From contig NC_014230.1 in the NCBI RefSeq assembly GCF_000196315.1, positions 1,942,001-2,006,000 of the forward strand: a stretch of DNA of 64,000 bases, in the 5' to 3' direction. Positions 2,731 to 42,190 of this stretch are shown here, piece by piece. The notes beneath the pieces are model-generated. The model did not search any database, was not told the origin of the DNA, and was given only the letters and a program-made list of their open reading frames with translations. Every line of letters begins with the position of its first letter. Position 1 is the first letter of the stretch. The stretch is from Croceibacter atlanticus HTCC2559. GTDB lineage: Bacteria; Bacteroidota; Bacteroidia; Flavobacteriales; Flavobacteriaceae. A program made the translations under genes and the position numbers.

Positions 2731-4184
2731 TGGGTATTGTTTTAAAACAGTCTTTTAAAAATTTAGTGAGTACCTATGCAGGTTTTGGGTTGGGTGCCAT
2801 TAATGTGCTGTTTTTATATCCTAATTTCATGACGCCAGAATATTATGGCTTGGTATCTTTTATATTATCTGCGAGTATGTTGTTCTGGCCATTAATGGCT
2901 TTAGGAACTCACAATACATTGGTTAAATTTTACTCTTCGTATTCTAAACAGGAAGAAAAAGAGAAGCTATTTAGTTTTGTTTTGGTATTGCCTCTCTTAG
3001 TTGGTTTAGTCTTAGGTTTAATAGGTTATTTTGGCTATTCGTTTGTACTGTCTTATTTTAATGGAGAAAATGAATTGGTAAAACCTTATGCCTGGCTCAT
3101 TTTTGTAATAACCTTTGCTATGGCTTACTTCGAGCTCTTCTTTTCTTGGAGTAAAGTATTTTTAAAAAGCACATTTGGGAACATAATGCGAGAAGTATTT
3201 CATAGAGCCTGCATTATGATCTTATTAGGGTTACTTTATATTAATGTCATAGATATTCCGCTGTTTTTATATATAATGACGGCAGTATATGTATTAAGAA
3301 CGTTATTGATGATGGTATTTGCATTTAAGTTGCACTTGCCTAAACTTCAATTTAAATTACCGGATAATGCATCACGTGTTATAAAATATTCGGCACTAAT
3401 TTTCATAGCAGGAAGTGTTGCTATGATGTTGTTAGACTTAGATAAAGTGATGATTGAGTATTATTTGCCAATTGAAAATGTTGCTATATATGGTATCTCA
3501 ATTTATATAGCATCTGTAATAGCTGTCCCAAGTAGAGCAATGCATCAAATTACATATCCTCTTACGGCACAATTATTAAATGATAAGGATTATGCAGGGT
3601 TAAAGAATTTATACCAACGTAGCTCGAACACACTGCTAATAGTTGGAGGACTTATATTCTTACTTATAATTTGTAATGTTGGAGAGTTGTATGAGATGAT
3701 ACCACAGGATTACCATATTGGATTTTCAATTGTAATTTTAATAGGCATTGTTAAGTTGTATGAAAATCTTATTGGGAATAATAACAGTATTTTATTTAAT
3801 TCAGATTATTATAGGTTAGTCTTAGCAATAGGAGTGCTATGTGCTGTTATGGCTGTAGTACTTAATATTTTACTTATTCCAAAATTTGGTGTGTACGGTG
3901 CTAGTTATGCAACGTTTATTGCATTTTTTACCTATAATACAGTAAAGCTAATTGTGGTTTGGAAAAAATTTAAGATGCATCCATTTTCATCAAGAACATG
4001 GGTCTCATTAGGTCTCATAGCTCTATTTACACTTAGTTTTTATTTTTGGGATTTCAATTTTCAACCACTACTTAATATTGCTTTAAAATCTGTAATACTC
4101 GGATTGTTATTTGTTGGATTTTCTTGGAAGCTGAAACTCTCTAATGATGTTTCTCAAGTTATAGATACTTATTTAAAGCGATAG
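2730..4184 (+). CDS. Polysaccharide flippase, Wzx/MOP superfamily
   Basis: 484 residues with about 12-14 hydrophobic segments spread over the whole length and short charged loops. The N-terminal pattern (NLVSTYAGFGLGAINVLFLYP) is typical of Bacteroidota oligosaccharide flippases. These proteins move lipid-linked glycan units across the inner membrane. It is the last gene of the run starting before the window; its ATG overlaps the stop of the glycosyltransferase. It converges on the gene at 4265-5470. Confidence 0.85.
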   Translation: MGIVLKQSFKNLVSTYAGFGLGAINVLFLYPNFMTPEYYGLVSFILSASMLFWPLMALGTHNTLVKFYSSYSKQEEKEKLFSFVLVLPLLVGLVLGLIGYFGYSFVLSYFNGENELVKPYAWLIFVITFAMAYFELFFSWSKVFLKSTFGNIMREVFHRACIMILLGLLYINVIDIPLFLYIMTAVYVLRTLLMMVFAFKLHLPKLQFKLPDNASRVIKYSALIFIAGSVAMMLLDLDKVMIEYYLPIENVAIYGISIYIASVIAVPSRAMHQITYPLTAQLLNDKDYAGLKNLYQRSSNTLLIVGGLIFLLIICNVGELYEMIPQDYHIGFSIVILIGIVKLYENLIGNNNSILFNSDYYRLVLAIGVLCAVMAVVLNILLIPKFGVYGASYATFIAFFTYNTVKLIVVWKKFKMHPFSSRTWVSLGLIALFTLSFYFWDFNFQPLLNIALKSVILGLLFVGFSWKLKLSNDVSQVIDTYLKR

Positions 4185-27777: not shown

Positions 27778-28686
27778 ATGAAATTATTAATTACAGGCGC
27801 TACAGGATTAATCGGAACACATGTTACAGCCGTTTGTCATGAGCGTGGTTATACTGTAAATTATCTTACAACAGATAAGGACAAAATTGAAAATAAGCCT
27901 AACTATAAGGGATTTTACTGGAATCCTAGGGAAGGTGAAATAGATGTTTCTTGTTTTGAAGGTGTAGACGCTATAATTAACTTAGTTGGGGCCAATATTG
28001 CAAAGCGTTGGACAGAGTCTTACAAAAAAGTGATTATAAAAAGTAGAACTGAAACTGCAGAACTTCTTTTAAAATCTTTATCTCAGCGTGAGCATAACGT
28101 TAAGCATATTGTGTCGGCTAGTGGTATAAGTATTTATCCAAGTTCTCTCACCAAATTTTATACAGAAGAGCATAAAGAAGTTGATGATACTTTTATTGCA
28201 GATGTTGTTGTTAAATGGGAAGCTGCTATTGATGCTTTTGAAACCATAGGTATAGATGTAGCAAAACTGAGAATAGGGTTAGTATTAGCCGAAGAAGATG
28301 GTGCATTGCCTAAATTAGCACAGCCTGTTAAACTTGGTGTTGGTGCTCCTCTTGGTAGTGGGAAACAGTGGCAATCTTGGATTCATATAGACGATTTAGC
28401 GAGAATGTTTGTACACGTTGTAGACCAACATTTAGATGGTGTTTATAATGCAGCTACATCTAAACCACAGACAAATAAGGAGATTACACAGTATATTGCA
28501 GAAACCCTTAACAAACCACTTTGGCTACCAAATATTCCAAAACCTGTTATAAAATTAATGTTGGGTGAAATGGCTACCGTAGTTTTAGGCAGCCAAATGG
28601 CTAGCAATCACAAAATAGCTTCAACTGGTTTTGTTTATGAATACCATCACATTAAATTAGCTCTGGAAGACTTACTTAAAAATTAG
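27778..28686 (+). CDS. TIGR01777 family NAD(P)-binding epimerase-like protein
   Basis: 302 residues, full length. The N-terminal Rossmann motif is ITGATGLIGTHV. Family signatures are INLVGANIAKRWTESYKKVI near 72, SASGISIYP near 117, KLRIGLVLAEEDGALPK near 167 and GSGKQWQSWIHIDDLARM near 197. It belongs to the extended short-chain dehydrogenase/reductase superfamily (YfcH-like). Some relatives are linked to cell division or chloroplast pathways; the substrate is unknown. Its stop TAG overlaps the stop of hisIE on the other strand. Confidence 0.9.
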   Translation: MKLLITGATGLIGTHVTAVCHERGYTVNYLTTDKDKIENKPNYKGFYWNPREGEIDVSCFEGVDAIINLVGANIAKRWTESYKKVIIKSRTETAELLLKSLSQREHNVKHIVSASGISIYPSSLTKFYTEEHKEVDDTFIADVVVKWEAAIDAFETIGIDVAKLRIGLVLAEEDGALPKLAQPVKLGVGAPLGSGKQWQSWIHIDDLARMFVHVVDQHLDGVYNAATSKPQTNKEITQYIAETLNKPLWLPNIPKPVIKLMLGEMATVVLGSQMASNHKIASTGFVYEYHHIKLALEDLLKN

Positions 28687-29303
28687 TGTCTGCCTTTTAG
28701 TACAGCCTCGATATCCTTTAAGCTAAATCCTTTAGCTTTTAAGAGAATTAAATAGTGGAATAATAAATCTGCGCTTTCATTTAGAAATAAGTCGTCGTTA
28801 TCATCTTTGGCTTCAATTACCGTTTCAACAGCTTCTTCGCCTACTTTTTGAGCTATCTTATTTATACCTTCATCAAATAATGAAACCACATAACTCTTAG
28901 CATCTTTACCACGTTGTTCTGGAGCAACTTCTGAAATTTCTTTACGTTCACTTATTATAGTTTCTAATTCTGAAAGAAATCCAAAATTCTGAACATTCTT
29001 CTCATTCCAGCAAGTATCATTTCCTTTATGGCACGTTGGCCCTTTAGGTTTTGCCTGAATTAACAATGCATCTTGATCACAATCTACTTTAATAGAAACC
29101 AATTCTAAAACATTACCACTTTCTTCGCCTTTTGTCCAAAGACGTTGTTTGCTTCGGCTAAAAAAAGTAACCTGCTTTAGTTCTTGTGTCTTTAATACTG
29201 CTTCATCATTCATATAACCAAGCATTAACACATTCTTAGTTTCAGAATCTTGTATAATTGCTGGAACCAAACCGTTTGTATATTTATCAAAATTAATTGT
29301 CAT
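28683..29303 (-). CDS. hisIE: Bifunctional PRA-CH / PRA-PH, HisIE
   Basis: 206 residues. The N-terminal half (to about 115) is phosphoribosyl-AMP cyclohydrolase, with VKVDCDQDALLIQ and CHKGNDTCW providing metal-binding Asp and Cys residues. The C-terminal half is phosphoribosyl-ATP pyrophosphatase with GEEAVETVIEAKDDN and ESADLLFHYLILL. They catalyse steps 2 and 3 of histidine synthesis. Last gene of the his operon. The two convergent genes share the bases TTAG at their ends. Confidence 0.95.
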   Translation of the reverse strand: MTINFDKYTNGLVPAIIQDSETKNVLMLGYMNDEAVLKTQELKQVTFFSRSKQRLWTKGEESGNVLELVSIKVDCDQDALLIQAKPKGPTCHKGNDTCWNEKNVQNFGFLSELETIISERKEISEVAPEQRGKDAKSYVVSLFDEGINKIAQKVGEEAVETVIEAKDDNDDLFLNESADLLFHYLILLKAKGFSLKDIEAVLKGRH

Positions 29304-29347
29304 AGTTTCTTCTATCTTTAGTCGTCTTACTTACTTTATTTTAAAAT

Positions 29348-30103
29348 TTAGAGTCTTACAGCAATATTATCGGCCTGTAAGGCTTTCTTTAAATCAACAA
29401 TTTCAATCTCTTTAAAGTGAAATACGCTTGCTGCTAATGCTGCATCACTTTTCCCTAAGTGAAAGGTGTCTTTAAAATGCTGAATACTTCCTGCACCACC
29501 AGATGCAATAATAGGTATAGTTAATTCTTCTGAAAGCTTACGTAACGCTTCATTAGCAAAACCATCTTTTGTACCATCGTTATTCATTGAGGTAAATAAA
29601 ATCTCACCAGCACCGCGCTGTTCTACCTCTTTAGCCCAAGTAAATAAATTGAGTTCTGTAGGTACTTTACCACCAACTAGGTGCACCATCCATTCGCCAT
29701 TAACTTGTTTAGCATCAATAGCTACTGTTACACATTGACTCCCAAATTTAGCCGATAAGTCATTTATTAACTGCGGATTTTTAACTGCCGATGAATTAAT
29801 TGAAACTTTATCTGCGCCATTTTGAAGCAGGATATCTACATCTTCAACACTTGAGATGCCACCACCAACAGTAAAAGGTATATTTACTTGTTCTGCAACT
29901 TGAAGGACAAGCTTAGCCAATGTTTTTCGTTTTTCTTCTGTAGCAGAAATATCTAGAAATACCAATTCATCTGCACCTTCAATAGCATAGCGTTTCGCGA
30001 GCTCAACAGGATCTCCGGCATCTCGTAGCCCAACAAAATTAACACCTTTTACAGTGCGGCCATCTTTTATATCTAAGCAAGGAATTATTCGTTTTGTTAA
30101 CAA
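29348..30103 (-). CDS. hisF: Imidazole glycerol phosphate synthase cyclase subunit HisF
   Basis: 251 residues, (beta/alpha)8 barrel. Start [20 protein letters not shown] with catalytic Asp11; [10 protein letters not shown] and NSSAVKNP phosphate loops; IASGGAGS near 220. With HisH it forms imidazole glycerol phosphate and AICAR. It lies between hisA and hisIE with gaps of about 43 bases. Confidence 0.96.
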
Positions 30104-30146
30104 GGGATTAGGTTTTAAAGATTAGGAATTTGCCTCTTCTAATTTC

Positions 30147-30878
30147 TTAATTTGAATTTAAAATGAAGGATTCAAGTTGCTTTAAAGAGATTCTATTCTC
30201 ATAAATTGCTTTACCAATTATAGTGCCCTCACAACCAATTTCGGCTAATTTTGGAAGTTCATCAAATGTTGAGATTCCTCCTGACGCTATGAGTTTAAGA
30301 TCATTTTCGGTTTCATTTAAAATACGCTTATATAAATTAAATGCTGGTCCTTCAAGCATACCATCTTTAGAAATATCTGTACAAATTACATAGGCTATGC
30401 CTTTATTTTGATACTCATTTATAAAAGGAATTAAAGCTTTGTCACTTTCTTCTAACCAGCCAGAAACTGCAATCTTTTCATCCATGGCATCTGCACCTAA
30501 AATAATTTTATCTGCACCGTAGGTATTTATCCAAGACGAAAATGTTTCAGGGTTTTTAACGGCAATACTACCTCCAGTAATTTGTTTTGCACCACTTTCA
30601 AAAGCAATTCTCAAATCGTCATCGGTTTTTAGACCACCACCAAAATCAATCTGTAAAGAGGTGTTTGTGGCAATATTTTCTAAAACTTTGTGATTAACAA
30701 TATGCTTAGATTTTGCACCATCTAAATCTACCAAATGCAAATATTTAATGCCGTGATCCTCAAATCGTTTTGCCATGTCTAAAGGATCTTCACTGTAAAT
30801 TTTTTTAGTAGAGTAGTCGCCTTTACTCAATCTTACGCATTTACCTTCTATAATATCTATTGCTGGAATAATTCGCAT
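30147..30878 (-). CDS. hisA: ProFAR isomerase HisA
   Basis: 243 residues, the sister barrel of HisF. Start [17 protein letters not shown] with catalytic Asp8; [12 protein letters not shown] near 78; [13 protein letters not shown] with the second catalytic Asp; ASGGIST near 195. It isomerises ProFAR to PRFAR, the substrate of HisHF. The hisH stop lies only three bases before its ATG. Confidence 0.95.
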
Positions 30879-30881
30879 ATG

Positions 30882-31466
30882 CTATAGGTTTAAGAAATTT
30901 TTTAAAAGTTGTTCTCCGTCATTACTACTTTTTTCAGGGTGAAATTGCACACCATAAAAATTGTCTTTTTGTAAAGCAGAACTATATTGTATTTGATATT
31001 CGCTTGTTGAAATAGTTTCAGTAGAAATAGGAGCGTAGTAGCTATGTACTAAATACATAAAACTATGCTCTGAAACTTGTTGAAATAACTCAGATTTTAA
31101 ATTGGTAATTGTATTCCACCCAATTTGGGGCACTTTTACTAAGGTTGAATCGAATTTTAAAACATCAACATCAAAAATACCAAGACCTTCTGTTTGTCCT
31201 TCTTCAGTATAATTACACATTAACTGCATACCTAGACAGATTCCCAAGACAGGTTGTTTTAATGTAGGTATTAGTTTGTGCAAACCAGTTTCTTTCAGCT
31301 TCTTCATTGCAGAACTTGCTTCACCAACACCAGGAAATATAACCTTGTCGGCTTTTTTAATCGTTTCGGTATCATTAGACAAAATCGCCTCAACACCTAG
31401 ACGTTTAAATGCAAACTGAAGGCTTTTTATATTGCCTGCACCATAATTAATTATTACTAGTTTCAT
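30882..31466 (-). CDS. hisH: Imidazole glycerol phosphate synthase amidotransferase HisH
   Basis: 194 residues, class I glutamine amidotransferase. Nucleophile Cys77 in LGICLGMQLM; His176 and Glu178 in FHPEKS complete the triad; the start IINYGAGNIKSL is typical. It feeds ammonia to HisF. Three bases separate it from hisA; a 141-base gap with no gene lies between hisB and hisH and holds an imperfect stem (AAAGCAGTAAG / CTTACAGCTTT). Confidence 0.95.
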   Translation of the reverse strand: MKLVIINYGAGNIKSLQFAFKRLGVEAILSNDTETIKKADKVIFPGVGEASSAMKKLKETGLHKLIPTLKQPVLGICLGMQLMCNYTEEGQTEGLGIFDVDVLKFDSTLVKVPQIGWNTITNLKSELFQQVSEHSFMYLVHSYYAPISTETISTSEYQIQYSSALQKDNFYGVQFHPEKSSNDGEQLLKNFLNL

Positions 31467-31607
31467 AATAAGTAAGAAGTATGAAGTGAAAGGTTTGAGG
31501 TTATTATTTTTGAATACATAGTATATCTATATTGTTTGTGCAGTTTTCATTGAATTAGCTATTAAAGCAGTAAGCTCGATAGATCTTTTTACTTACAGCT
31601 TTTAACT

Positions 31608-32741
31608 TTAAAGAACACCTTTAGTACTAGGCAACACCATCTTTTCTACATCACGTTTTACTGCCATTTTAATACTTTTTGCAAATGCCTTAAAAATAGC
31701 TTCAATTTTATGATGTTCATTCTGGCCTTCTGCCTTTATGTTAAGGTTAGCTTTTGCACCATCACTAAAGCTTTTAAAGAAATGTATAAACATTTCGGTT
31801 GGCATATCACCAACGTGCTCTCTGTTGAACTCTGCGTCCCAAACAAGCCAGTTTCTACCTCCAAAATCTATGGCAACTTGTGCTAAACAATCATCCATAG
31901 GTAAACAGAATCCATAACGCTCAATACCCATTTTGTTACCTAATGCATTGGCAAATACTTCGCCTAAAGCAATGGCTGTATCTTCAATTGTATGGTGTTC
32001 ATCTACTTCTAAATCGCCATCTACTTTTATATCTAAATCCATAGCACCGTGTCGAGCTAATTGATCTAACATATGATCGAAAAACTTTAGACCTGTATCT
32101 ATATTACTATTTCCTTTTCCATCAAGATTAAGTGTTATGTTAATCTTAGTTTCGTTGGTGTTTCTAGTAATTTCATAGGTTCTGTTTTTTAATTTTAAAA
32201 ACTCGTATATACGTTCCCAATCATTAGTTTCAATAGCAATATGTTGCTCCAATTCTTTTTCTGAAGTTGATATTTCGCCTGTTCCTAAATTGGTGTCGTC
32301 GTTTATAAAAATGCCTTTAGAACCTAAGTTTTTAGCAAGCTCCATATCTGTAAGCCTATCACCTATGACAAAGGAGTTTTCTAAATCATAGTCTTCAGAA
32401 AAATACTCAGTAAGTAATCCTGTTCCTGGTTTTCTGGTATCTTTATTTTCGTGCGGAAACGTACGGTCTAAAAAGACTTTATTAAAGGTGACGCCTTCAT
32501 TTTCAAAAGATGTCATAATAAAATTATGGACAGGCCAGAAGGTGTCTTCCGGAAACACATCTGTTCCTAAACCATCTTGATTAGTGATCATAACCAATTC
32601 GTAATCTAGTTCCTTAGCTATTTTTCCTAAAAATGTAAATGCTTTAGGGTAAAATATCATTTTCTCAAACGCGTCAATTTGCTCATCTACAGTTTCTTTA
32701 ATGATTGTGCCGTCTCTGTCTATGAATAGTACTTTTTTCAT
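31608..32741 (-). CDS. hisB: Bifunctional histidinol-phosphatase / IGP dehydratase HisB
   Basis: 377 residues. The N-terminal HAD phosphatase (1-165) starts [16 protein letters not shown], with nucleophile in DRDGT and the zinc-loop region near 100. The C-terminal imidazoleglycerol-phosphate dehydratase (about 190-377) has [10 protein letters not shown] and the second motif [12 protein letters not shown]. It catalyses steps 6 and 8 of the pathway. Directly upstream lies a perfect palindrome (32756-32776) that marks the left edge of the inserted GIY-YIG cassette; without the cassette hisC would probably lie close to hisB. Confidence 0.96.
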
Positions 32742-32755
32742 ATTCTGAAATTTTC

Positions 32756-32776
32756 ACCCTGAACTTGATTCAGGGT
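32756..32776. repeat. CCTGAA palindrome, left of the GIY-YIG gene
   Basis: ACCCTGAA (32756-32763) and TTCAGGGT (32769-32776) form a perfect 8-bp stem with loop CTTGA, 15 bases before the hisB ATG. It is related to the palindrome at 33155-33173 in opposite orientation. Such TTCAGG palindromes are, as I recall, frequent intergenic repeats in Bacteroidota genomes. Confidence 0.7.
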
Positions 32777-32882
32777 CTTTTTAAACTTAACTGAGTGGTT
32801 TTTGAATACTTGTTTCAGTTAATATTATTAATTTTTAAATATCAATTGTTTTTAATTCTGGATTTACTGATTTTACTAAATT

Positions 32883-33125
32883 TCATTTCCAGTCTTTATG
32901 CCAATTTTTTAATTGCTTCTCTCTTTGTTTTGCTTGTTTTTTAATGTCAAACTTTTCATAATAAACTAAGTCGTGAACATTATACATTTTTGTAAAAACT
33001 GCACCTGTCCCTTTTTTATGCTTTTCTAACCTTACTTTTAAATTTTCAGTGTAACCAATATACAATACACCTCTGTTTTTGTTTGAAAGTATATAGCAGT
33101 AATAGATTTTCACTTCATCATTCAT
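32883..33125 (-). CDS. GIY-YIG nuclease, interrupted by an in-frame TGA
   Basis: 80 residues to the first stop. The GIY-YIG core is intact: YYCYIL and LYIGYT strands, the conserved Arg in VRLEKHKKG, the Tyr/Phe region LVYYEKF, and the catalytic Glu in QREKQLKNWHKDWK. Small GIY-YIG proteins of this type normally continue for about 15 residues with L-I-x-N-P-x-W/L. After the TGA at 32883-32885 the same frame reads NLVKSVNPELKTIDI and then TAA (32835-32837), exactly this missing tail. The gene therefore carries a nonsense codon in a 96-codon frame. It is out of place among his genes and is framed by palindromes. Confidence 0.85.
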   Translation of the reverse strand: MNDEVKIYYCYILSNKNRGVLYIGYTENLKVRLEKHKKGTGAVFTKMYNVHDLVYYEKFDIKKQAKQREKQLKNWHKDWK

Positions 33126-33154
33126 AACTAATTTAGTAGGTTGTATTCAAAAGT

Positions 33155-33173
33155 TCCTGAAACCAGTTCAGGA
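33155..33173. repeat. CCTGAA palindrome, right of the GIY-YIG gene, overlapping the hisC end
   Basis: TCCTGAA (33155-33161) and TTCAGGA (33167-33173), perfect 7-bp stem, loop ACCAG. The hisC stop codon TGA (33168-33170 on the minus strand) lies inside it. Confidence 0.7.
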
Positions 33174-34223
33174 TTTCGAAATTGATTTCAAAGTTGTAAT
33201 CAATTTCTCATTTTCAGAAGCTGTACCAACCGTAAATCGTAATGTGTTTTCACAAAGTGGTTGGGTACTTCTATTACGTATTACAATTCCGTTTTCAATA
33301 AGTTGCTTGTAGCGTTTATTAGCATCATCAACCTTCACCAGAATAAAATTTGCATCTGTTTTATAACTATGATTTATAAAGTTAATTGTGTTCAATTGGT
33401 TCATAAGCTTTTCTCTTTCAGAGATTAGTTTTGTTATTTCTAGTTGAACATTTTCTTCTTCTAAAATTCGTTTTAAAGCCACTTGCTGCGTTAATACGTT
33501 AACATTATATGGTGGTTTTATTTTGTTTAGAATAGAAATGATTTCTTTAGAAGCAAAGCACATACCCAACCTAATTCCTGCCATACCATAAGCTTTAGAT
33601 AAAGTTTGAGTCACAATTAAATTTTGAAATTCTTGTAATCGCGTCGTCCAACTTTCAGCTTCAGCAAAATCTATATAAGCTTCGTCTATTACTATAATAC
33701 CATTAAAGCTACTTAAGATTGTTTCAATAGCTTTTGAAGCGATTAAGTTTCCAGTCGGATTATTAGGAGAGCAGATGAAGATAAGTTTTGTATTTGCATC
33801 TACTTCAGCCAAAATAGCATTAACATCTAACTGAAAATCATCTACAAGTAACACCTCTTTATTTTCTATTGCATTGGTATTTGCCAACACCTTATACATA
33901 CCGTAAGTAGGTGGCAATGTGATGATGTTATCCCGATTTGGTTCACAAAATGCTCTAAAGATTAAATCTAAAACTTCATCGCTACCATTACCTAATAGAA
34001 TCTGATTTATAGGAACACGTTTTACAGAAGATAGCTGAGTCTTCAAATTTAATTGTTGTGGGTCTGGATACCTATTTACTTTGGTCTCAAAGGGATTCTC
34101 ATTGGCATCTAAAAATACCATATCATCTTCAAAATCTGTAAACTCATCTCGAGCAGAAGAGTAGGCACTCATCGCTTTTATATTCTCTCGAACTAAGGTA
34201 TCTAAGTTAAAATCTTTATTCAT
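33168..34223 (-). CDS. hisC: Histidinol-phosphate aminotransferase HisC
   Basis: 351 residues, aspartate-aminotransferase fold. Signatures: FLDANENPFET near 33, LLGNGSDEVLDL near 96, CSPNNPTGN near 150, VIDEAYIDFAE near 177 and the PLP lysine in TLSKAYGMAGIRLG. It transfers an amino group to imidazole acetol phosphate. The start overlaps the end of hisD by eight bases. Its last codon and stop (TCC TGA) are supplied by the palindrome at 33155-33173, so the C-terminus was probably rewritten when that repeat arrived. Confidence 0.95.
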   Translation of the reverse strand: MNKDFNLDTLVRENIKAMSAYSSARDEFTDFEDDMVFLDANENPFETKVNRYPDPQQLNLKTQLSSVKRVPINQILLGNGSDEVLDLIFRAFCEPNRDNIITLPPTYGMYKVLANTNAIENKEVLLVDDFQLDVNAILAEVDANTKLIFICSPNNPTGNLIASKAIETILSSFNGIIVIDEAYIDFAEAESWTTRLQEFQNLIVTQTLSKAYGMAGIRLGMCFASKEIISILNKIKPPYNVNVLTQQVALKRILEEENVQLEITKLISEREKLMNQLNTINFINHSYKTDANFILVKVDDANKRYKQLIENGIVIRNRSTQPLCENTLRFTVGTASENEKLITTLKSISKS

Positions 34224-35505
34224 TGTCTAGAGATTTTAAACGTAATGTTACCGCATTTTTGTGTGCCTGTAAGCCTTCTGCTTCTGCCATAAGCTCAATA
34301 GCATTACCAATGTTTTGGATACCGGTTTTAGAAATTTCCTGAAACGTCATACTCTTCATAAAACTGTCTAGGTTTACACCACTATATTGTTTGGCGTAAC
34401 CATTTGTAGGTAACGTATGATTGGTGCCACTTGCGTAATCTCCTGCACTTTCTGGTGTGTAATTTCCAATAAATACTGAGCCTGCATTTTGAATACCATT
34501 TACAAAAAAGTCATTGTCTTTTGTACATACTATAAAGTGCTCTGGACCATAAGTGTTAATGAGATCTAATGCTTCTACATTATCTTTAACTAAGATAGAT
34601 TTTGAATGTTTTATAGCAACTTCTGCAATATCTTTTCTTGGGAGTTCTTTAAGTTGATTTGATATTTCTGCCTCGACATCTTTTATAAGATCCATAGAGG
34701 TACTCACCAAAATAACCTGGCTGTCTTTGCCGTGCTCTGCTTGGCTTAATAAGTCTGAAGCTACAAAAGCAGCATTTGCAGTATCATCTGCAACAACTAA
34801 CAATTCACTTGGGCCTGCAGGCATATCTATAGCTACATTAAATTTGGTAGCCAATTGTTTAGCGACTGTTACAAATTGATTTCCTGGACCAAATATTTTA
34901 TAAACTTTTGAGATAGACTCTGTACCGAATGTCATACCTGCAATAGCTTGAATGCCACCAACTTTATAAATTTTAGAAATGCCACAAAGATTTGCGGTGT
35001 ATAAAATAGCGGGATTAATCTTTCCTTTTTTATCTGGTGGCGTGCACAGCACAATCTCCTCACAACCTGCAATTAAGGCAGGAACAGCCAACATTAAAAT
35101 GGTTGAAAAGAGTGGTGCTGTACCACCAGGAATATATAAGCCTACTTTTTGAATAGGTCTTTTTTCTTGCCAACAACGTACACCTTGCGTGGTTTCAACT
35201 TCTATTTTTTGGGTACGCTGTGCTTTGTGAAATAACTCTATGTTAGACTTTGCCAATGTAATGGCTTGTTTTAACTCTTCTGAAACAAGAGATTCTGATT
35301 CCTTAATTTCTAAGTTTGAAACTTCTAATTGATTTAGTTTAATGCCGTCAAAAAGTTCGGTATACTTTTTAATGGCTTCATCACCTTTAGAGTCAACCTC
35401 AGAAAAGATTTGTTTTACGGTGTCTTCAATATCTTCAACCGTTTGAGTAGGGCGTTTTAACAGGTCTTGCCAATCTTCTATTTTAGGATAGGATACAAAC
35501 TTCAT
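34216..35505 (-). CDS. hisD: Histidinol dehydrogenase HisD
   Basis: 429 residues, full length. Signatures: VGLYIPGGTAPLFSTILM near 117, GPGNQFVTVAKQL near 206, DMPAGPSELLVVAD near 228, LLSQAEHGKDSQ with zinc-site residues near 255, and TYGPEHFIVC with the catalytic Glu-His pair. It oxidises histidinol to histidine in two NAD-dependent steps. It lies two bases from hisG and overlaps hisC. Confidence 0.96.
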   Translation of the reverse strand: MKFVSYPKIEDWQDLLKRPTQTVEDIEDTVKQIFSEVDSKGDEAIKKYTELFDGIKLNQLEVSNLEIKESESLVSEELKQAITLAKSNIELFHKAQRTQKIEVETTQGVRCWQEKRPIQKVGLYIPGGTAPLFSTILMLAVPALIAGCEEIVLCTPPDKKGKINPAILYTANLCGISKIYKVGGIQAIAGMTFGTESISKVYKIFGPGNQFVTVAKQLATKFNVAIDMPAGPSELLVVADDTANAAFVASDLLSQAEHGKDSQVILVSTSMDLIKDVEAEISNQLKELPRKDIAEVAIKHSKSILVKDNVEALDLINTYGPEHFIVCTKDNDFFVNGIQNAGSVFIGNYTPESAGDYASGTNHTLPTNGYAKQYSGVNLDSFMKSMTFQEISKTGIQNIGNAIELMAEAEGLQAHKNAVTLRLKSLDNE

Positions 35506-35507
35506 AA

Positions 35508-36365
35508 TTACAAAACCATTTTTTCAATTGGTGCAACTAAAATGCTCTCTGCTCCAGCTTCCTTAAGATCATCAATTACTTGCCAAAATTCGTTATCCTT
35601 AACAACAGAGTGTAAAGAACTCCAACCTTCTTTTGCAAGTGGCAAAACAGTAGGACTGTTCATACCTGGCAGGATACCTATAATAGCTTCAATCTTATCA
35701 TTTGGAGCATTTAGCAATACATATTTAGAGTTTTTGCCGTTTAAAACCGCACGCATTCTAAACTGTAACTTTTCTAACGTCTCTTTAGCTTCATTTGTTA
35801 TTTTAGGTGAGACAGCTAACACAGCTTCACTTTTTAACATGACTTCAACTTCTTTCAAGTTATTTTTAAACAAGGTACTTCCACTAGAAACGATATCACA
35901 AATAGCATCTGCGAGACCTATATTTGGAGCAATTTCAACAGACCCGTTAATTATGTGCAAATCTGCTTCTATATTATGTTTGTTTAAATACTGTTGAACG
36001 GTATTTGGATAAGAAGTAGCAATGCGTTTGCCTTGAAAATCTGAAATACCATTGTAATCTTTTTCCTTAGGAATTGCCAGAGATACTTTACATTTAGAAA
36101 AGCCTAACTTTTCTGCAATTGCAATGTCTTCACCTTTTTCTATTAATACATTCTCTCCGATGATAGCTATATCTACAACGCCATCTCTTAGATATTGTGG
36201 TATATCACCATTGCGTAAATAAAAAACTTCTAAGGGAAAATTACGGGCGCTAGCTTTAAGTTGGTCTTTACCATTATCTATAGATATGCCACAATCTTTA
36301 AGAATTTGAAGAGAATCTTCATTTAATCTGCCACTTTTCTGAATGGCAATTTTAATAGTACTCAT
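35508..36365 (-). CDS. hisG: ATP phosphoribosyltransferase HisG (long form)
   Basis: 285 residues, the long form with a C-terminal regulatory domain. N-terminal KIAIQKSGRLNEDSLQILKDCG; phosphate-binding DIVSSGSTLFKNNL near 160; C-terminal ACT-like domain from about 205 with LPGMNSPTVLPLA. It catalyses the first, feedback-inhibited step of histidine synthesis and needs no HisZ. It is the first structural gene, about 50 bases behind the attenuator terminator. Confidence 0.96.
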   Translation of the reverse strand: MSTIKIAIQKSGRLNEDSLQILKDCGISIDNGKDQLKASARNFPLEVFYLRNGDIPQYLRDGVVDIAIIGENVLIEKGEDIAIAEKLGFSKCKVSLAIPKEKDYNGISDFQGKRIATSYPNTVQQYLNKHNIEADLHIINGSVEIAPNIGLADAICDIVSSGSTLFKNNLKEVEVMLKSEAVLAVSPKITNEAKETLEKLQFRMRAVLNGKNSKYVLLNAPNDKIEAIIGILPGMNSPTVLPLAKEGWSSLHSVVKDNEFWQVIDDLKEAGAESILVAPIEKMVL

Positions 36366-36412
36366 TGGTTACAGTTTATGTTTGAGAACAGTTTTGGCAA
36401 ACGGATAAAATC

Positions 36413-36445
36413 AAAAAACCCGTTTGAATGTCTCAAACGGGTTTT
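36413..36445 (-). terminator. Attenuator terminator of the his operon
   Basis: On the plus strand AAAACCCGTTTGA (36415-36427) pairs perfectly with TCAAACGGGTTTT (36433-36445). Read on the minus strand the stem ends in a T-run (GGGTTTTTTGA), between the leader peptide and hisG. The 5' arm can instead pair with 36479-36486 in the leader. Confidence 0.9.
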
Positions 36446-36472
36446 AGATTTATAGTTTTTCACATACCAAAT

Positions 36473-36526
36473 CTACATCGCTTGAGCGTTGCTAGAAAAA
36501 TGGTGATGTGTATGTGTGTTTCTCAT
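36473..36526 (-). CDS. hisL: His operon leader peptide
   Basis: An 18-codon frame, MRNTHTHHHFSSNAQAM then TAG, with four His in five positions (5, 7, 8, 9). It is followed by a terminator and then hisG, the classic layout of ribosome-mediated attenuation. Codons 14-16 contain CTCAAGCG (36486-36479), which can pair with CGTTTGAG in the 5' arm of the terminator (36439-36432): seven Watson-Crick pairs and one G-U. A ribosome held at the His codons leaves this segment free, so the antiterminator forms; a ribosome at the stop codon covers it and the terminator forms. Confidence 0.9.
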   Translation of the reverse strand: MRNTHTHHHFSSNAQAM

Positions 36527-36534
36527 TATGGCAA

Positions 36535-36542
36535 CAAAAGTA
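36535..36542 (-). promoter_or_regulatory. -7 box of the his operon
   Basis: TACTTTTG on the minus strand matches TAnnTTTG, eight bases before the leader-peptide ATG. No TTG at -33. The leader peptide would be read from an almost leaderless transcript. Confidence 0.5.
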
Positions 36543-36688
36543 ATATATATTACTGATTAATTATAGCTTATAACATAATTTTCACATTCGTTTATCAGAA
36601 TAATCTGTCTTTTATCACATTTATCCAAATGTTAATATACAATTTGAAGACTTTTTATAAATTTATAAGCAGAACATAGGCATACTAC

Positions 36689-37687
36689 ATGAAAAACTTT
36701 TTTACGGCATTCTTATTCTTTTGTATTTGGGCAATTTTTGGAATGTGGTATTACAGCTGTGTTATAAAAGGATTGTGTAACGATATTAGTTTCTTTAATG
36801 AAACTAAAGCTACAGAACAGACAGCTGAAGAATTAAAATCCCAAGAACAAGCTAAGCTTAAACATTATAATGATAGTTTAGAAAGGGTTAGGCAAGACTC
36901 ATTAAAGCAACTCGCAATTGAAACTGATAGGATAAAAAATAAGTTCACAAATGCTAATTTTCTTGGAACACTACAGCCAAGTGGTGATACTATATTTTAT
37001 TATCCTAACCCATTAACGGCTTATAAAAATAAAGCCAACATTTACGTTCCACAACCAAATTTAGGGTTTATAACTAAAGCTGTAAATTACATGAACACCA
37101 ATCCTAATACAGAGATGGTTGTTTATGGCGCATACAGTCCTACAACAGAGCAAACAACCGATTCTTTAGGAATAGCAAGAGCCAATTTCTTAAAAAATAG
37201 AATTTTAAGGTATGGTTTAAATGAGCATAGAATATCTACCAAAGCTATTGAACGCCCATTAGAGTTTGATACTCGTGGCAGAAATTATGAAGCCATTGTT
37301 GTGGAGTTTAAACAACTTTCTTCAGCCAAGGTTGAAGCTATAGAGGAAAGTGTGACCAATAAAACGCTATATTCCTCATTTGCACAACAGAATTTTAAAC
37401 CAGATGCAACACTAAAAAGTTATGCGCTTGAATTAAAGTCTTACTTACAGAAACACCCAAATAAGCGAGTAAGCATTGTAGGGCATACAGATTTTGTTGG
37501 AGAAGAGGAAGATAATTTATGGATTGGAGAACAACGAGCTAAATTAGTAATGAAATATCTAATATCAATAGGTATAGATGCTAATAAAATGACAGCAAGC
37601 TCCAAAGGAGAATCTGATCCTAAGTTTCCAAATACAACAGATGCTAATAGAGCAAAGAACAGACGTATAGAAATAAAAGTGAATTAA
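36689..37687 (+). CDS. OmpA-family protein with N-terminal membrane anchor
   Basis: 332 residues. An N-terminal hydrophobic helix (3-27) is followed by a helical Gln/Lys-rich linker (45-75). Residues about 105-210 resemble a degenerate OmpA-like module (MNTNPNTEMVVYGAYSPT). Residues about 235-332 form a canonical OmpA C-terminal domain with SIVGHTDFVGEEEDN, GEQRAKLVMKYL and NRAKNRRIEIKVN, which binds peptidoglycan. It should tie the membrane to the cell wall. The next gene starts 12 bases later and is also membrane-anchored, so both may act together. Confidence 0.85.
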   Translation: MKNFFTAFLFFCIWAIFGMWYYSCVIKGLCNDISFFNETKATEQTAEELKSQEQAKLKHYNDSLERVRQDSLKQLAIETDRIKNKFTNANFLGTLQPSGDTIFYYPNPLTAYKNKANIYVPQPNLGFITKAVNYMNTNPNTEMVVYGAYSPTTEQTTDSLGIARANFLKNRILRYGLNEHRISTKAIERPLEFDTRGRNYEAIVVEFKQLSSAKVEAIEESVTNKTLYSSFAQQNFKPDATLKSYALELKSYLQKHPNKRVSIVGHTDFVGEEEDNLWIGEQRAKLVMKYLISIGIDANKMTASSKGESDPKFPNTTDANRAKNRRIEIKVN

Positions 37688-37699
37688 TTAAATAAGCCC

Positions 37700-38248
37700 A
37701 TGTTTGAACAGTTAAACCCTTTAGCAAGATCTACTGCTTGGTTAGAGATATTTATACTAATGTTTGTTGCCTTTCTTATTGGGTATCTTTTTGCGCGTTG
37801 GTATTACAAGAAAAAGCTTGAAGAAGCCTCGCAATATTCTTATAATGCTACAGCAGACAGGCAAATAAACACTGCTAATACTGCAAATAAGGTTGAAAAC
37901 TACGATACAGATATAATTACACCAGGAAATATAAAAGCAATAAAAACTAGAGAGCGCTCTGGAGCAGCAGTAGTTAATAGAGCTGCACCTCTGGAAAAAC
38001 CAGAATTAGATTTTTCTGTAATTGGTCAAGCAGATATCGCTGACAAAGATGATCTTAAAAAAATAAGTGGTGTAGGACCATTTATTGAAGAAAAGCTTAA
38101 TAGTATAGGTATATATACGTATGAACAGATAAGTAAATTTAGAAAGGAAGATATAGAAAATGTAACCGCATTAATTGAGTTTTTTCCAGGTCGTATAGAA
38201 CGTGATAATTGGAAAGGACAAGCAGAGGCATTACATAAAAATGCCTAG
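37700..38248 (+). CDS. Membrane-anchored helix-hairpin-helix protein
   Basis: 182 residues. One membrane helix near the N-terminus (IFILMFVAFLIGYLFARWYY), a low-complexity Ala/Asn/Thr linker, then a C-terminal domain from about 117 with DDLKKISGVGPFIEEKLNSIG, the helix-hairpin-helix motif, and IEFFPGRIERDNW. Such domains resemble those of ribosomal protein L21-like and DNA-binding proteins and often receive the name flap-endonuclease-like. No nuclease catalytic residues are visible. The C-terminal domain should lie in the cytoplasm. It overlaps the stop of the GNAT gene on the other strand at CTAG. Confidence 0.75.
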   Translation: MFEQLNPLARSTAWLEIFILMFVAFLIGYLFARWYYKKKLEEASQYSYNATADRQINTANTANKVENYDTDIITPGNIKAIKTRERSGAAVVNRAAPLEKPELDFSVIGQADIADKDDLKKISGVGPFIEEKLNSIGIYTYEQISKFRKEDIENVTALIEFFPGRIERDNWKGQAEALHKNA

Positions 38249-38700
38249 TTAATTATATATTCCATTTTAATATTTGCTCTTTCATAAGCAACACCTTCTT
38301 CTAAGGGCACTTCTTTAAAGCCAAATTTTCTATAAATATAAATGGCATTTTCTAGTTTAGTGTTGGAGTATAGGATTACTTTCTCTAAGCCCATTACTTT
38401 TGCCTCGTTTAAGCAGTGTGTCATTAATTTCTGCCCAATTTTAAGACCTCTTAAATTAGTGTTTACAGCCATTTTAGTAAGTTCAAAAACAGTATCTGTA
38501 ACTTTCATAAGAGCTACAGTTCCTGCAACTTTATTATTGTGTAAGCTAAAGAAAATCTTTCCGCCTTTATCTAAAATATATTTATCTGGATTAGAGAGCA
38601 CTTCATTGTCATAATCTTCAACATAAAAAAATGTCTCTAGCCACTCAATATTTAGCGCTTTAAAATCTTGAGCGTATTTAGGGTTGTAATCTATAATCAT
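38245..38700 (-). CDS. GNAT family N-acetyltransferase
   Basis: 151 residues, a single GNAT domain. The acetyl-CoA loop reads NLRGLKIGQKLMTHCLNEAK (positions about 88-107), preceded by the beta-4 strand LTKMAV and followed by KVILYSNTKLENAIYIYRKFGF. The acceptor is unknown. Its start overlaps the stop of hutG (ATGA), so it is the last gene of the hutI-hutG operon and may act on a related small molecule (inference). Confidence 0.87.
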   Translation of the reverse strand: MIIDYNPKYAQDFKALNIEWLETFFYVEDYDNEVLSNPDKYILDKGGKIFFSLHNNKVAGTVALMKVTDTVFELTKMAVNTNLRGLKIGQKLMTHCLNEAKVMGLEKVILYSNTKLENAIYIYRKFGFKEVPLEEGVAYERANIKMEYIIN

Positions 38701-39686
38701 TGTTGTCTAATAAAATCTGAAACCATATAACTAATGGCTTTTCCAGTAGGGTAGTACTCAGATGGTTTTGCCTCGCAAATATGTAAATAGTGACACGTAT
38801 TATGTGTAATACTTTCGGCAATACATTGCCTAATAGTTTCTAAAGACATACCACTTGGAGTTTGTGCACTGCTAGGAAACCCCGAAATGGCATCACAATC
38901 TATTTCTAAACCAAAAGCTGATTTAGAAATTTGGTTTAAAGCTTCTTTATAAGATTGTATGGCAATAGTATCACTCAAAATATCATCAAATAACGTGTAG
39001 TCTATAAATTTTGAAGCATTCATAGATTTAAATATATAGTCTGGCGTATAATTTTTGTGCAATCCAAAAATGTGATAAAAATTTAAATAGCCTTGTTCTT
39101 GTGCATAACTAAATCCGTTACCACTATGTCTATAATTTGTAGTTCTTAAATCTGTGTGAGCATCTATATTAATAACATTAATAGGATTAGAAATAGCTTC
39201 TGAAGCACCTTTAATATTTCCGTAGGCATTATTATGACCGCCACCAATTATGATAGGGATTTTCCCTAAGCTTATAATTGTCTTGACCAACTGAGAAACC
39301 TCTGCATCTATCTCAATTAAAATATCATGTAATTTAGCTGAAATGTTCGGGTCATTATCTTCGATATGCGAAGCTTTTATAAGCCAGTTTTTACAATCTA
39401 TTTCGCCAAGTAACAAAACATTTTCTGGTGTGTTAAATTGGTTAACTTGTATATTTAAGAAAGCATTTAAAAATGTATTGAAAGCGTTTTTAGTACCACT
39501 TTTACCTAAATTAGCACGAACACCAATATCTTCTGGAATGCCAAAGATTACGTATTTGGCAGTGCTTTCTTTCAATGTTTCTAAAGAGTTTACTGTACCA
39601 ATACGCTCACCAAATTTAATTTCACCTTTTCGTGGAGAGGTGTACATTTTTAGATCTTCTGTGCTAAATATTTTTAAATGTTTCAC
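38697..39686 (-). CDS. hutG: Formimidoylglutamase-like ureohydrolase
   Basis: 329 residues, arginase/ureohydrolase fold. Metal-binding motifs are GGGHNNAYG near 165, NIDAHTDLR near 190 and EIDCDAISGFP near 263. The start is GTG at 39686, overlapping the stop of hutI by one base. Beside imidazolonepropionase it most likely cleaves N-formimidoylglutamate to glutamate and formamide, the last step of histidine breakdown. The gene is longer than bacterial agmatinases, as usual for this branch. Confidence 0.85.
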   Translation of the reverse strand: MKHLKIFSTEDLKMYTSPRKGEIKFGERIGTVNSLETLKESTAKYVIFGIPEDIGVRANLGKSGTKNAFNTFLNAFLNIQVNQFNTPENVLLLGEIDCKNWLIKASHIEDNDPNISAKLHDILIEIDAEVSQLVKTIISLGKIPIIIGGGHNNAYGNIKGASEAISNPINVINIDAHTDLRTTNYRHSGNGFSYAQEQGYLNFYHIFGLHKNYTPDYIFKSMNASKFIDYTLFDDILSDTIAIQSYKEALNQISKSAFGLEIDCDAISGFPSSAQTPSGMSLETIRQCIAESITHNTCHYLHICEAKPSEYYPTGKAISYMVSDFIRQQ

Positions 39687-40921
39687 TATAAAATCTTTCC
39701 GTTAACAAATACTGAAGCAATACAATTTTCACCAAAACTGTATGGTAAATACCCGTAACTTGGAATTGGGTTTGTAAGAATTATATTAGCTTTTTTTCCT
39801 TTTGTAATACTGCCTACTTCGTTACTTAATCCCATAGCATAAGCACCATTAATAGTTGCTGCATTTATAGCTTCTTCTGGTGTCATATTCATTTTAATAC
39901 TAGCAAGGCTTACCACCAAATTCATATTTCCGCTTGGTGTGCTGCCTGGATTAAAATCTGTTGCTAAAGCTAAGGGTAAGCCGGCATCAATTAATTTGCG
40001 TGCTGGAGTATAAGGGATACTTAAGAATAATGAACAAGAAGGTAAAGCTACTGGCATAGTAGTGGCGTTCTTTAATGCATCAATATCTTCTGCAGTCATA
40101 ACCTCTAAGTGATCTACACTTAACGCACCTTGATCAACAGAAGCCTTTACGCCACCTATTGAATTAAATTGGTTTACGTGTACTTTAGGAGTAAGGCCGT
40201 GAGATTTTCCTGCAGAAAGTATATAGTTGGTGTCATCTAGATCAAAATATCCTTTTTCACAAAAAATATCTATATAGTCTGCAAGCTGTAGCTCTGCTAT
40301 CTTCGGAAGCATTTCCTCGGCAATTAATTTAAGATACCCTTTCTTATTTCCTTTAAATTCTTTCGGTACTGCGTGAGCTCCTAAAAAAGTAGCTTTTATA
40401 GGAATGTTATATTTGTCTTTAAGTTGTTTAATAACCTTAAGCATTTTAAGCTCAGCTTCTGTAGTCAGGCCATATCCAGACTTAATTTCAACAGCGCCTG
40501 TGCCTAATGCCATAACTTGTTCTAAACGTTTAGCAGATTGTTGGTATAAATCTTCAATAGAGGTTTGTTGAAGCTTTTCTGCACTGTTTACAATTCCGCC
40601 ACCTTTATTGGCAATTTCTTCATAAGACAAGCCATTTATACGATCTACAAATTCTTGCTCTCTGTTCCCTGCATATACAATATGTGTATGGCTATCACAC
40701 CAGCTTGGCAAGACAAACCTACCTGTACAATCTATTTCTTCAAAATTCTTAGATTCTGGGAGTTGGGACATTGGTCCAAAATCTGAAATCACCCCATTTT
40801 CCATTAAAAGAAATGCATTGTCAATTTTAGGTAAATGCTTCATGTCTTTCCCAGAAACTTTATCAACAGTTGCCTCTCTAACTTGTAAAAGTTGCTTTAT
40901 GTTTTTAAGTAATATTGCCAT
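39686..40921 (-). CDS. hutI: Imidazolonepropionase HutI
   Basis: 411 residues, amidohydrolase superfamily. Metal ligands lie in SWCDSHTHIVYAGNRE near 73; signature INGLSYEEIANKGGGI near 96; GAVEIKSGYGLT near 145; HVNQFNS near 245; ATDFNPGSTPSGNM near 322. It hydrolyses imidazolone propionate to formimidoylglutamate. First gene of a three-gene minus-strand operon. TATCTTTA, one base from a -7 box, ends four bases before the ATG. HutH and HutU are not in the window. Confidence 0.95.
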   Translation of the reverse strand: MAILLKNIKQLLQVREATVDKVSGKDMKHLPKIDNAFLLMENGVISDFGPMSQLPESKNFEEIDCTGRFVLPSWCDSHTHIVYAGNREQEFVDRINGLSYEEIANKGGGIVNSAEKLQQTSIEDLYQQSAKRLEQVMALGTGAVEIKSGYGLTTEAELKMLKVIKQLKDKYNIPIKATFLGAHAVPKEFKGNKKGYLKLIAEEMLPKIAELQLADYIDIFCEKGYFDLDDTNYILSAGKSHGLTPKVHVNQFNSIGGVKASVDQGALSVDHLEVMTAEDIDALKNATTMPVALPSCSLFLSIPYTPARKLIDAGLPLALATDFNPGSTPSGNMNLVVSLASIKMNMTPEEAINAATINGAYAMGLSNEVGSITKGKKANIILTNPIPSYGYLPYSFGENCIASVFVNGKIL

Positions 40922-41017
40922 AGTGTAAAGATAGAAAAGCTTTAACGAAATAATAACGCGTATGTTAGCAAATGCAGGATAACTTGGTTAATTTTAGGGT
41001 CTAATTTAATTTTTATC

Positions 41018-42190
41018 ATGGAATCTAAGAGCTACGGAAAAAACACAATTTGTACACACGCAGGACAACTGGAGGATCACCAATTTGGTGGAGCAGTTTC
41101 TCCGCTATATATGTCTACATCTTACCCTTTTCAAGACGTAGAAGAAAAGCGATATCCAAGATATTTTAACACACCTAACCAACAAGGCTTATCAAAAAAA
41201 GTTGCTGCATTAGAACATGGTGAAGCAGGTCTTATTTTTGGAAGTGGTATGGCGGCTATAATGACTTCACTTTTAGCTTTCTTACAGAGTGGTGATCACG
41301 TGGTATTGCAAAATGCTATTTATGGAGGAACTCGAAACTTAATTAATGAGGAGTTTAAAAAGTTTGGTATTGAGTATTCTTATGTAGAGAGTAATGATAT
41401 TGCTAGTTACGAAAAAGTGATTGCACATAACACAAAGGTTATTTATATAGAAACTCCTAGTAACCCATTATTAGAAATAACAGATATTAAAGCTATTGCT
41501 GAGTTAGCAAAAAAACATAAGCTTATATCTATGATAGATAATACGTTTGCATCTCCTATAAATCAAACTCCAATAGTTTTTGGGATTGATGTTGTATTAC
41601 ACTCTGCTACTAAATACATGAGTGGTCATAGTGATATCTTAGCTGGTGCAGTAGTATCTAGCCACGCCAACATAGAGCGCATATTTAATGCTGGCAAAAA
41701 CTTTGGAGGCACATTGAGTGATTTTACTGTTTGGTTATTAGAGCGTAGCCTAAAAACTATGGCTTTAAGAGTTAAGCGCCAAAACAGAAATGCACGTAAG
41801 TTGGCAAAATGGTTAGAAAAAAACACTCAAGTAACCAAAGTGTATTATCCTGGATTAAAGTCGCACCCTAATTACAAATTGGCAAAAGAGCAAATGAAAG
41901 GCTTTGGAGGCATGTTGTCTTTCGAATTAAAAGATGATTTATGCTCAAAACAATTTCAAGACAGTTTAAATTTAATAAAATCTTCTATGAGTTTAGCTGG
42001 TGTAGAAAGTACAATACTAAGTCCACACCTTACATCTCACGGCCTACTTTCTGAAGAAGAAAGAGAAGAACAAGGCATAAAAAATGGATTATTAAGATTT
42101 TCTGTGGGAATAGAAGAGGTCTCAGATCTTAAAGCAGATATTGAGCAAGCACTTAAATTAGCTTCAAAATTATCTAAAGTAATTGTATAA
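41018..42190 (+). CDS. Trans-sulfuration PLP enzyme (cystathionine synthase/lyase or methionine lyase type)
   Basis: 390 residues, the Cys/Met-metabolism PLP family. Signatures: HAGQ near 14, GEAGLIFGSGMAAIMTSLLA near 70, ETPSNPLLEITDI near 147, DNTFASPINQTPI near 178 and PLP lysine in VLHSATKYMSGHSD. The family includes cystathionine gamma-synthase, beta/gamma-lyases and methionine gamma-lyase; sequence alone does not decide among them. Divergent from hutI, with about 96 bases between. Confidence 0.88.
   Translation: MESKSYGKNTICTHAGQLEDHQFGGAVSPLYMSTSYPFQDVEEKRYPRYFNTPNQQGLSKKVAALEHGEAGLIFGSGMAAIMTSLLAFLQSGDHVVLQNAIYGGTRNLINEEFKKFGIEYSYVESNDIASYEKVIAHNTKVIYIETPSNPLLEITDIKAIAELAKKHKLISMIDNTFASPINQTPIVFGIDVVLHSATKYMSGHSDILAGAVVSSHANIERIFNAGKNFGGTLSDFTVWLLERSLKTMALRVKRQNRNARKLAKWLEKNTQVTKVYYPGLKSHPNYKLAKEQMKGFGGMLSFELKDDLCSKQFQDSLNLIKSSMSLAGVESTILSPHLTSHGLLSEEEREEQGIKNGLLRFSVGIEEVSDLKADIEQALKLASKLSKVIV

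Follow-up and report, generated by a model that had tools for sequence, protein, structure and literature searches.

A candidate ribosome-mediated His attenuator ahead of hisG in Croceibacter atlanticus and its occurrence in the Flavobacteriaceae

Introduction

Leader-peptide attenuation of his operons is a classic mechanism in the Enterobacteria, and the his leader of E. coli contains seven His codons in a row. In the enterobacterial hisL element (RF00514, His_leader), a short leader peptide is encoded with His codons in tandem, and mutually exclusive antiterminator and terminator structures lie before hisG. These features are all shared by the element described here. In the Firmicutes, His leader-peptide attenuators are known from the B. 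cereus group, the Peptostreptococcaceae and the Erysipelotrichales (PMC9413887). By their description they are also alike, with 3–5 His codons in a row and a terminator plus an antiterminator upstream of the his operons. However, they belong to another phylum and are sparse there, while the element of the Flavobacteriaceae is nearly universal.

For the Bacteroidota, a first-pass annotation of the present locus remarked that this logic is less described. The remark was a fair one: a search of the open literature for a dedicated or detailed account of his attenuation in this phylum found none, and one paper, a 2021 transcriptome study of F. psychrophilum, reports strong indications in its main text that leader-peptide attenuation operates ahead of amino-acid operons (PMC9723704). 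The same text describes a structured 5′ element at hisG, conserved in other genera of the Flavobacteriaceae and without an Rfam match (PMC9723704). That element occupies the same position as ours, and on the description given there the two are very probably the same; that description comes without a leader sequence, a scheme of the pairings or a distribution. The present analysis contributes the sequence of the leader, its pairings, the one-to-one occurrence of element and hisG, a test based on stem turnover, and a predicted near-leaderless promoter.

Structure of the leader region

The window, that is, the whole stretch of 64,000 nucleotides analysed (C. atlanticus HTCC2559, NC_014230.1, positions 1,942,001 to 2,006,000), carries a complete his operon on its minus strand. 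The operon and its surroundings are composed as follows.

28683..36365, minus strand: his operon, putatively regulated by the element (hisG, hisD, hisC, a GIY-YIG ORF, hisB, hisH, hisA, hisF, hisIE)
35508-36365, minus strand: hisG, identified by Pfam
28683-29303, minus strand: hisIE, identified from its own sequence (the other operon genes by Pfam)
36689-37687, plus strand: divergent OmpA-like gene, the upstream neighbour of the leader
36473..36526, minus strand: candidate hisL, the gene for a His leader peptide of 17 aa (MRNTHTHHHFSSNAQAM), with its stop
36500..36514, minus strand: control codons CAT ACA CAT CAC CAT, 4 His within 5 codons
36479..36486, minus strand: segment 2, 5′ strand of the antiterminator (CUCAAGCG, leader codons 14–16), pairing with 36439-36432
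36468..36475, minus strand: inner antiterminator stem, 5′ side (UAGAUUUG), pairing with 36452-36445
36461..36467, minus strand: GUAUGUG directly after the leader stop
36445..36452, minus strand: inner antiterminator stem, 3′ side (UAAAUCUA)
36432..36439, minus strand: segment 3, 3′ strand of the antiterminator (CGUUUGAG), overlapping the 5′ terminator arm
36413..36445, minus strand: intrinsic terminator, 12-bp stem (AAACCCGTTTGA / TCAAACGGGTTT) and T-run

As had been claimed, a His-rich frame of 17 residues lies ahead of hisG. With its stop it comprises 18 codons (ATG AGA AAC ACA CAT ACA CAT CAC CAT TTT TCT AGC AAC GCT CAA GCG ATG TAG, 36526 to 36473 on the minus strand), and its run of His residues lines up across the alignment of the relatives (A1). 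Thus, tandem cognate codons are present in a short leader ORF. Between the last His codon (36502-36500) and the start of segment 2 (36486), we count 13 nt, the same value as in the first-pass annotation, all of whose coordinates proved correct when the sequence was read again.

Between the leader ORF and the first structural gene, an intrinsic terminator is found (36445-36413). Its arms, AAACCCGTTTGA (36444-36433) and TCAAACGGGTTT (36427-36416), form a stem of 12 bp around a loop at 36432-36428, and the T-run ends at 36413, 47 bases before the start of hisG. Since the upstream gene is divergent, this terminator cannot be that gene's own. The 156-nt leader RNA folds at −39.5 kcal/mol (z = −5.4), and none of 200 shuffled sequences folded as well; the perfect terminator with its T-run had been recognized correctly.

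The alternative pairing between 36479-36486 and 36432-36439 is formed exactly as proposed, with 8 bp including one G-U between CUCAAGCG and CGUUUGAG. We also found an 8-bp inner stem (UAGAUUUG/UAAAUCUA), absent from the first-pass annotation, which lies within the RNA that a stalled ribosome would leave free. The antiterminator including this stem amounts to −16.3 kcal/mol, as compared with −15.8 kcal/mol for the terminator.

A further pairing is open to GUAUGUG, directly after the leader stop, whose complement CACAUAC (36516-36510) belongs to the His codons. Motifs of the GTATG/GTATTG class were found in 125 of 168 leaders, against 19.6 expected, mostly at a fixed distance past the stop. The sequence of the window allows this pairing, but the commonest form of the motif does not, and the pairing was therefore rejected as a general role; the conserved motif is perhaps a pause site of RNA polymerase. 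A hairpin between segments 1 and 2 would keep untranslated RNA terminated. Such a hairpin (CACAUAC/GUAUGUG) exists in the window but is not evidently conserved, and a conserved one, sought across the relatives, was not found; in the folding without a ribosome, segment 2 pairs with the leader at a mean probability of 0.22.

Compared with the enterobacterial hisL, the element of the window has fewer control codons (four), no Shine-Dalgarno sequence, a predicted 5′ UTR of almost no length, and no conserved 1:2 hairpin. The RF00514 model gave no match at E ≤ 1 in positions 30000-42000 of the window. Its gathering score of 49 bits was not reached among the relatives either, the best of which (L118) stayed below the threshold at 33.4 bits.

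Conservation and distribution

The relatives of hisG were taken from named genomes and from samples of the family, the class and the phylum. In 132 of the 134 loci from the Flavobacteriaceae and close families, hisG is preceded by a short frame that starts with ATG and contains a cluster of His codons, while the chance level for a His-rich ATG frame was 1.05 per 134 dinucleotide-shuffled upstream regions, and the reverse strand gave 3. One of the two exceptions is a truncated contig (L052), and the other (L025) carries a leader with two His codons, MQNIKLHTHQFSIAQVR, and the same pairing. In other families of the class, the frame was found before hisG in 23 of 25 loci, the two remaining ones having His-rich frames without an ATG; in the wider sample of the phylum, it was found in 14 of 38. 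In nine loci of other families (L149-L153, L170, L171, L174 and L177), a short His-rich frame is present ahead of hisG, but no GC-rich terminator is clearly recognizable. The output mechanism may differ there, being an AT-rich terminator or translational control.

A covariance model was built from 84 sequences and run on 119 genomes of the family, about one per genus. Strong matches (E ≤ 1.3e-6) were obtained in 107 genomes. A separate search found hisG in 106 of the 119, and all of these 106 carry the element. None of the 12 genomes without a strong match has hisG; in other words, 12 of the 13 genomes lacking hisG are also free of the element. The 107th genome (G027) has no hisG gene, yet its element is followed by a short remnant of hisG (MKKLKIAVQKSGRFLDESLALLKGF...).

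L198, about 3850-4040, minus strand: intact-looking His attenuator of G027, before the hisG remnant

This copy is apparently a regulatory relic of a deleted his operon. One genome (G330) has two copies of the element, one of them at a contig end. In a dozen genomes whose element and hisG matches were compared by eye, the element was seen in each case just upstream of hisG and on the same strand. Matches on the opposite strand arise from the palindromic nature of the terminator. Among the secondary matches, that in L199 is an ordinary terminator, and that in L202 adjoins a CoA-transferase-like operon, with nothing His-like apparent. The comparison thus shows the putative His attenuator to be nearly universal in the Flavobacteriaceae.

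Covariation and turnover of the stems

In the terminator helix, 97.5% of the cells are paired and 5 pairs are changed on both sides; none of 500 shuffles reached as high a value. In the antiterminator, 87.2% of the cells are still paired, and for the segment 2:3 helix the value is 95.2% (84 sequences). The shuffle control for the antiterminator was mixed: doubly changed cells were more numerous than in any shuffle, which was not true of the count of pairs with such a change. In the relatives, the inner stem differs in sequence, and some of the changes are double (columns 54:77, 57:66 and 58:65).

A clearer view is given by loci whose terminator stems are unrelated. In a swap test, the upstream segments were matched in silico against all of the terminator arms, the terminators having been chosen by their own hairpins alone. 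The first version, using arms without the loop, was weak (11 groups; 616 of 100,000 permutations as good). The second included the loop, because segment 3 reaches into it, and this addition was made after the weak result was known. For 14 loci whose arms and loops had no more than one 6-mer in common, the segments bound their own partners at a mean of −14.5 kcal/mol, against −9.0 kcal/mol for swapped partners (z = −6.5), and none of 200,000 permutations was as good. The segment 2/3 pairs are wholly different between the groups, for example UCAAGCG/CGUUUGA, UAAGACGG/CCGUCUGA, GUGGCAGGUU/GGCUUGCCGC, AGAGCCGGG/CCCGGCUU and CCACCACGGC/GGCUGUGGUG.

In five relatives (L018, L023, L037, L039 and L046), a C-to-T change within segment 2 has made a stop codon out of CAA or CAG, and the base pair survives as a G-U. 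Segment 2 is therefore conserved as RNA and not as the end of a peptide. By the swap test and the pair counts, the antiterminator, which is exclusive with the terminator, is evolutionarily maintained. The first-pass annotation had named the loss of the His-rich frame or a lack of compensatory changes in relatives as what would refute it; instead, the frame is kept, and the complementarity of segments 2 and 3 outlives the turnover of the stems.

Promoter and 5′ UTR

A promoter box, absent from the first-pass annotation, was found ahead of the leader.

36535..36542, minus strand: −7 promoter box TACTTTTG of the Bacteroidota sigma-A type (TAHHTTTG)

The box ends 8 nt ahead of the leader ATG. Among 168 relatives, 87 have TAnnTTT[G/C] no more than 50 nt from the leader ATG, against 14 expected, and when the last base is relaxed, the boxes cluster at −15/−16. 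In many relatives, TTTTA replaces TTTTG, which is a weaker match. The end of the box lies 7–8 nt before the ATG in the lineage of the window, and 25–35 nt away in Flavobacterium-like loci. In F. johnsoniae, transcription starts 4–5 nt downstream of the box (PMC6847099), and this spacing, together with the position of the box, predicts a 5′ UTR of about 3–4 nt here. Shine-Dalgarno-like motifs are rare before the leader ATG (3 of 132 relatives), and A is common at −3 and −6, both in line with PMC6847099. Leaderless mRNAs make up about 5.5% in F. psychrophilum, according to the main text of PMC9723704.

The chances are about even that, in the lineage of the window, translation of the leader peptide begins on a transcript with almost no 5′ UTR and no Shine-Dalgarno sequence, and that polymerase and ribosome are synchronized through such (near-)leaderless initiation. 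In related genera, the promoter lies further back, with a predicted 5′ UTR of roughly 15–30 nt, and the other parts of the switch are retained.

Proposed mechanism and alternative explanations

The geometry is constant among the relatives: the median distance from the His run to the start of segment 2 is 12 nt, and that from this start to the end of the stop codon is 14 nt. A ribosome stalled on the His codons would thus free segment 2, and one at the stop codon would cover it. When a ribosome was masked at the stop codon in the folding, the probability of the antiterminator was 0.00 and that of the terminator 0.95. When it was masked on the His codons, the antiterminator reached 0.75 (0.84 in the window), with the RNA ending before the 3′ arm; without a ribosome, the antiterminator was only partly formed (0.39). 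For the full-length RNA at equilibrium, the terminator prevails in all states (average 0.91–0.95). For this reason, the switch would have to depend on kinetics, which is the general view of attenuators of this kind.

We consider it highly probable, from the sequence comparisons, that the element is a ribosome-mediated transcription attenuator by which the his operon is controlled through charged tRNA-His. Transcription would begin a few bases ahead of the leader ATG, and a ribosome would translate the His-rich leader behind the polymerase. With ample charged tRNA-His, it would reach the stop codon and cover segment 2 (36486-36479), leaving segment 3 (36439-36432) free for the terminator, and transcription would end before hisG. 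When charged tRNA-His is scarce, the ribosome would stall at the His codons with segment 2 still 13 nt ahead. The antiterminator, made up of segments 2 and 3 and the inner stem, would then be in place before synthesis of the 3′ terminator arm, and the polymerase would continue into hisGDCBHAFIE, which is the readthrough predicted on histidine starvation. The first-pass annotation had proposed this reading, and it gains support here: every prediction made at the sequence level was borne out, and the element is linked one-to-one with hisG.

Two other explanations have to be weighed. The strong structure of the 5′ element would also suit a riboswitch or a protein-controlled attenuator, such as a T-box or a target of a His-binding regulator, in which the His-rich frame is incidental. 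However, none of the Rfam cis-elements, the T-box included, scored as high as its gathering threshold, the window giving one chance match at E ≤ 1, and the T-box covariance model had no match in positions 30000-42000 of the window or in the leaders of the relatives. Moreover, no other part is as widely conserved as the His frame, which occurs even where the stems differ wholly, and the antiterminator lies at a fixed distance past the His codons and overlaps the stop codon. This explanation is thus very improbable.

It is just as improbable that the hairpin is an ordinary terminator lowering the basal expression of his, with the leader ORF encoding a small protein or serving as a uORF for reinitiation. 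Leader ORFs can boost downstream translation by reinitiation (PMC4833913), but the leader stop is located about 107 nt upstream of the hisG start, which is too far for simple coupling. Also against this explanation are the complementarity between the leader end and the terminator arm, which survives complete sequence turnover, and the relatives whose last codons were lost to early stops with the pairing unharmed. The ribosome-mediated attenuator accordingly remains the preferred explanation.

The elements constitute a well-supported family of predicted His attenuators in the Bacteroidota that is missing from Rfam, being family-wide in the Flavobacteriaceae and having rewritten stems in other families of the class. 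The alignment and the covariance model can be used to annotate the leader gene in further genomes. Because the proposed switch needs a ribosome close behind the polymerase, in a phylum without Shine-Dalgarno initiation, it makes transcription–translation coupling in the Bacteroidota directly testable.

Other leaders in the genome and neighbouring genes

A Thr leader was looked for before thrA in the C. atlanticus genome, and nothing obvious was seen. Before pheA (L204, ahead of the plus-strand ORF at about 1485), an aromatic-rich leader, MSNKTLHTAFYFWYFFFLK, and a terminator were found. The terminator arm pairs with the leader end at −14.3 kcal/mol, against −4.4 kcal/mol for shuffles, and this leader is a probable Phe/Tyr attenuator. 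Before trpE (L206, reverse strand), there is a Trp leader, MKANNTSWWWNNSRQ, with a terminator; the arm pairing test was not significant there (fraction 0.42), and GTCGTGA past the leader stop can pair with the loop and 3′ arm (TCACGAC).

Within the his operon, an ORF of 80 aa with a GIY-YIG nuclease domain is located between hisC and hisB (32883-33125, minus strand). The hisB gene (31608-32741, minus strand) looks bifunctional, with a HAD-like phosphatase part and an IGP dehydratase. Close to this biosynthesis operon, probable histidine-degradation genes are found at 38697-40921 on the minus strand: an amidohydrolase resembling imidazolonepropionase and an arginase-family protein resembling formimidoylglutamase.
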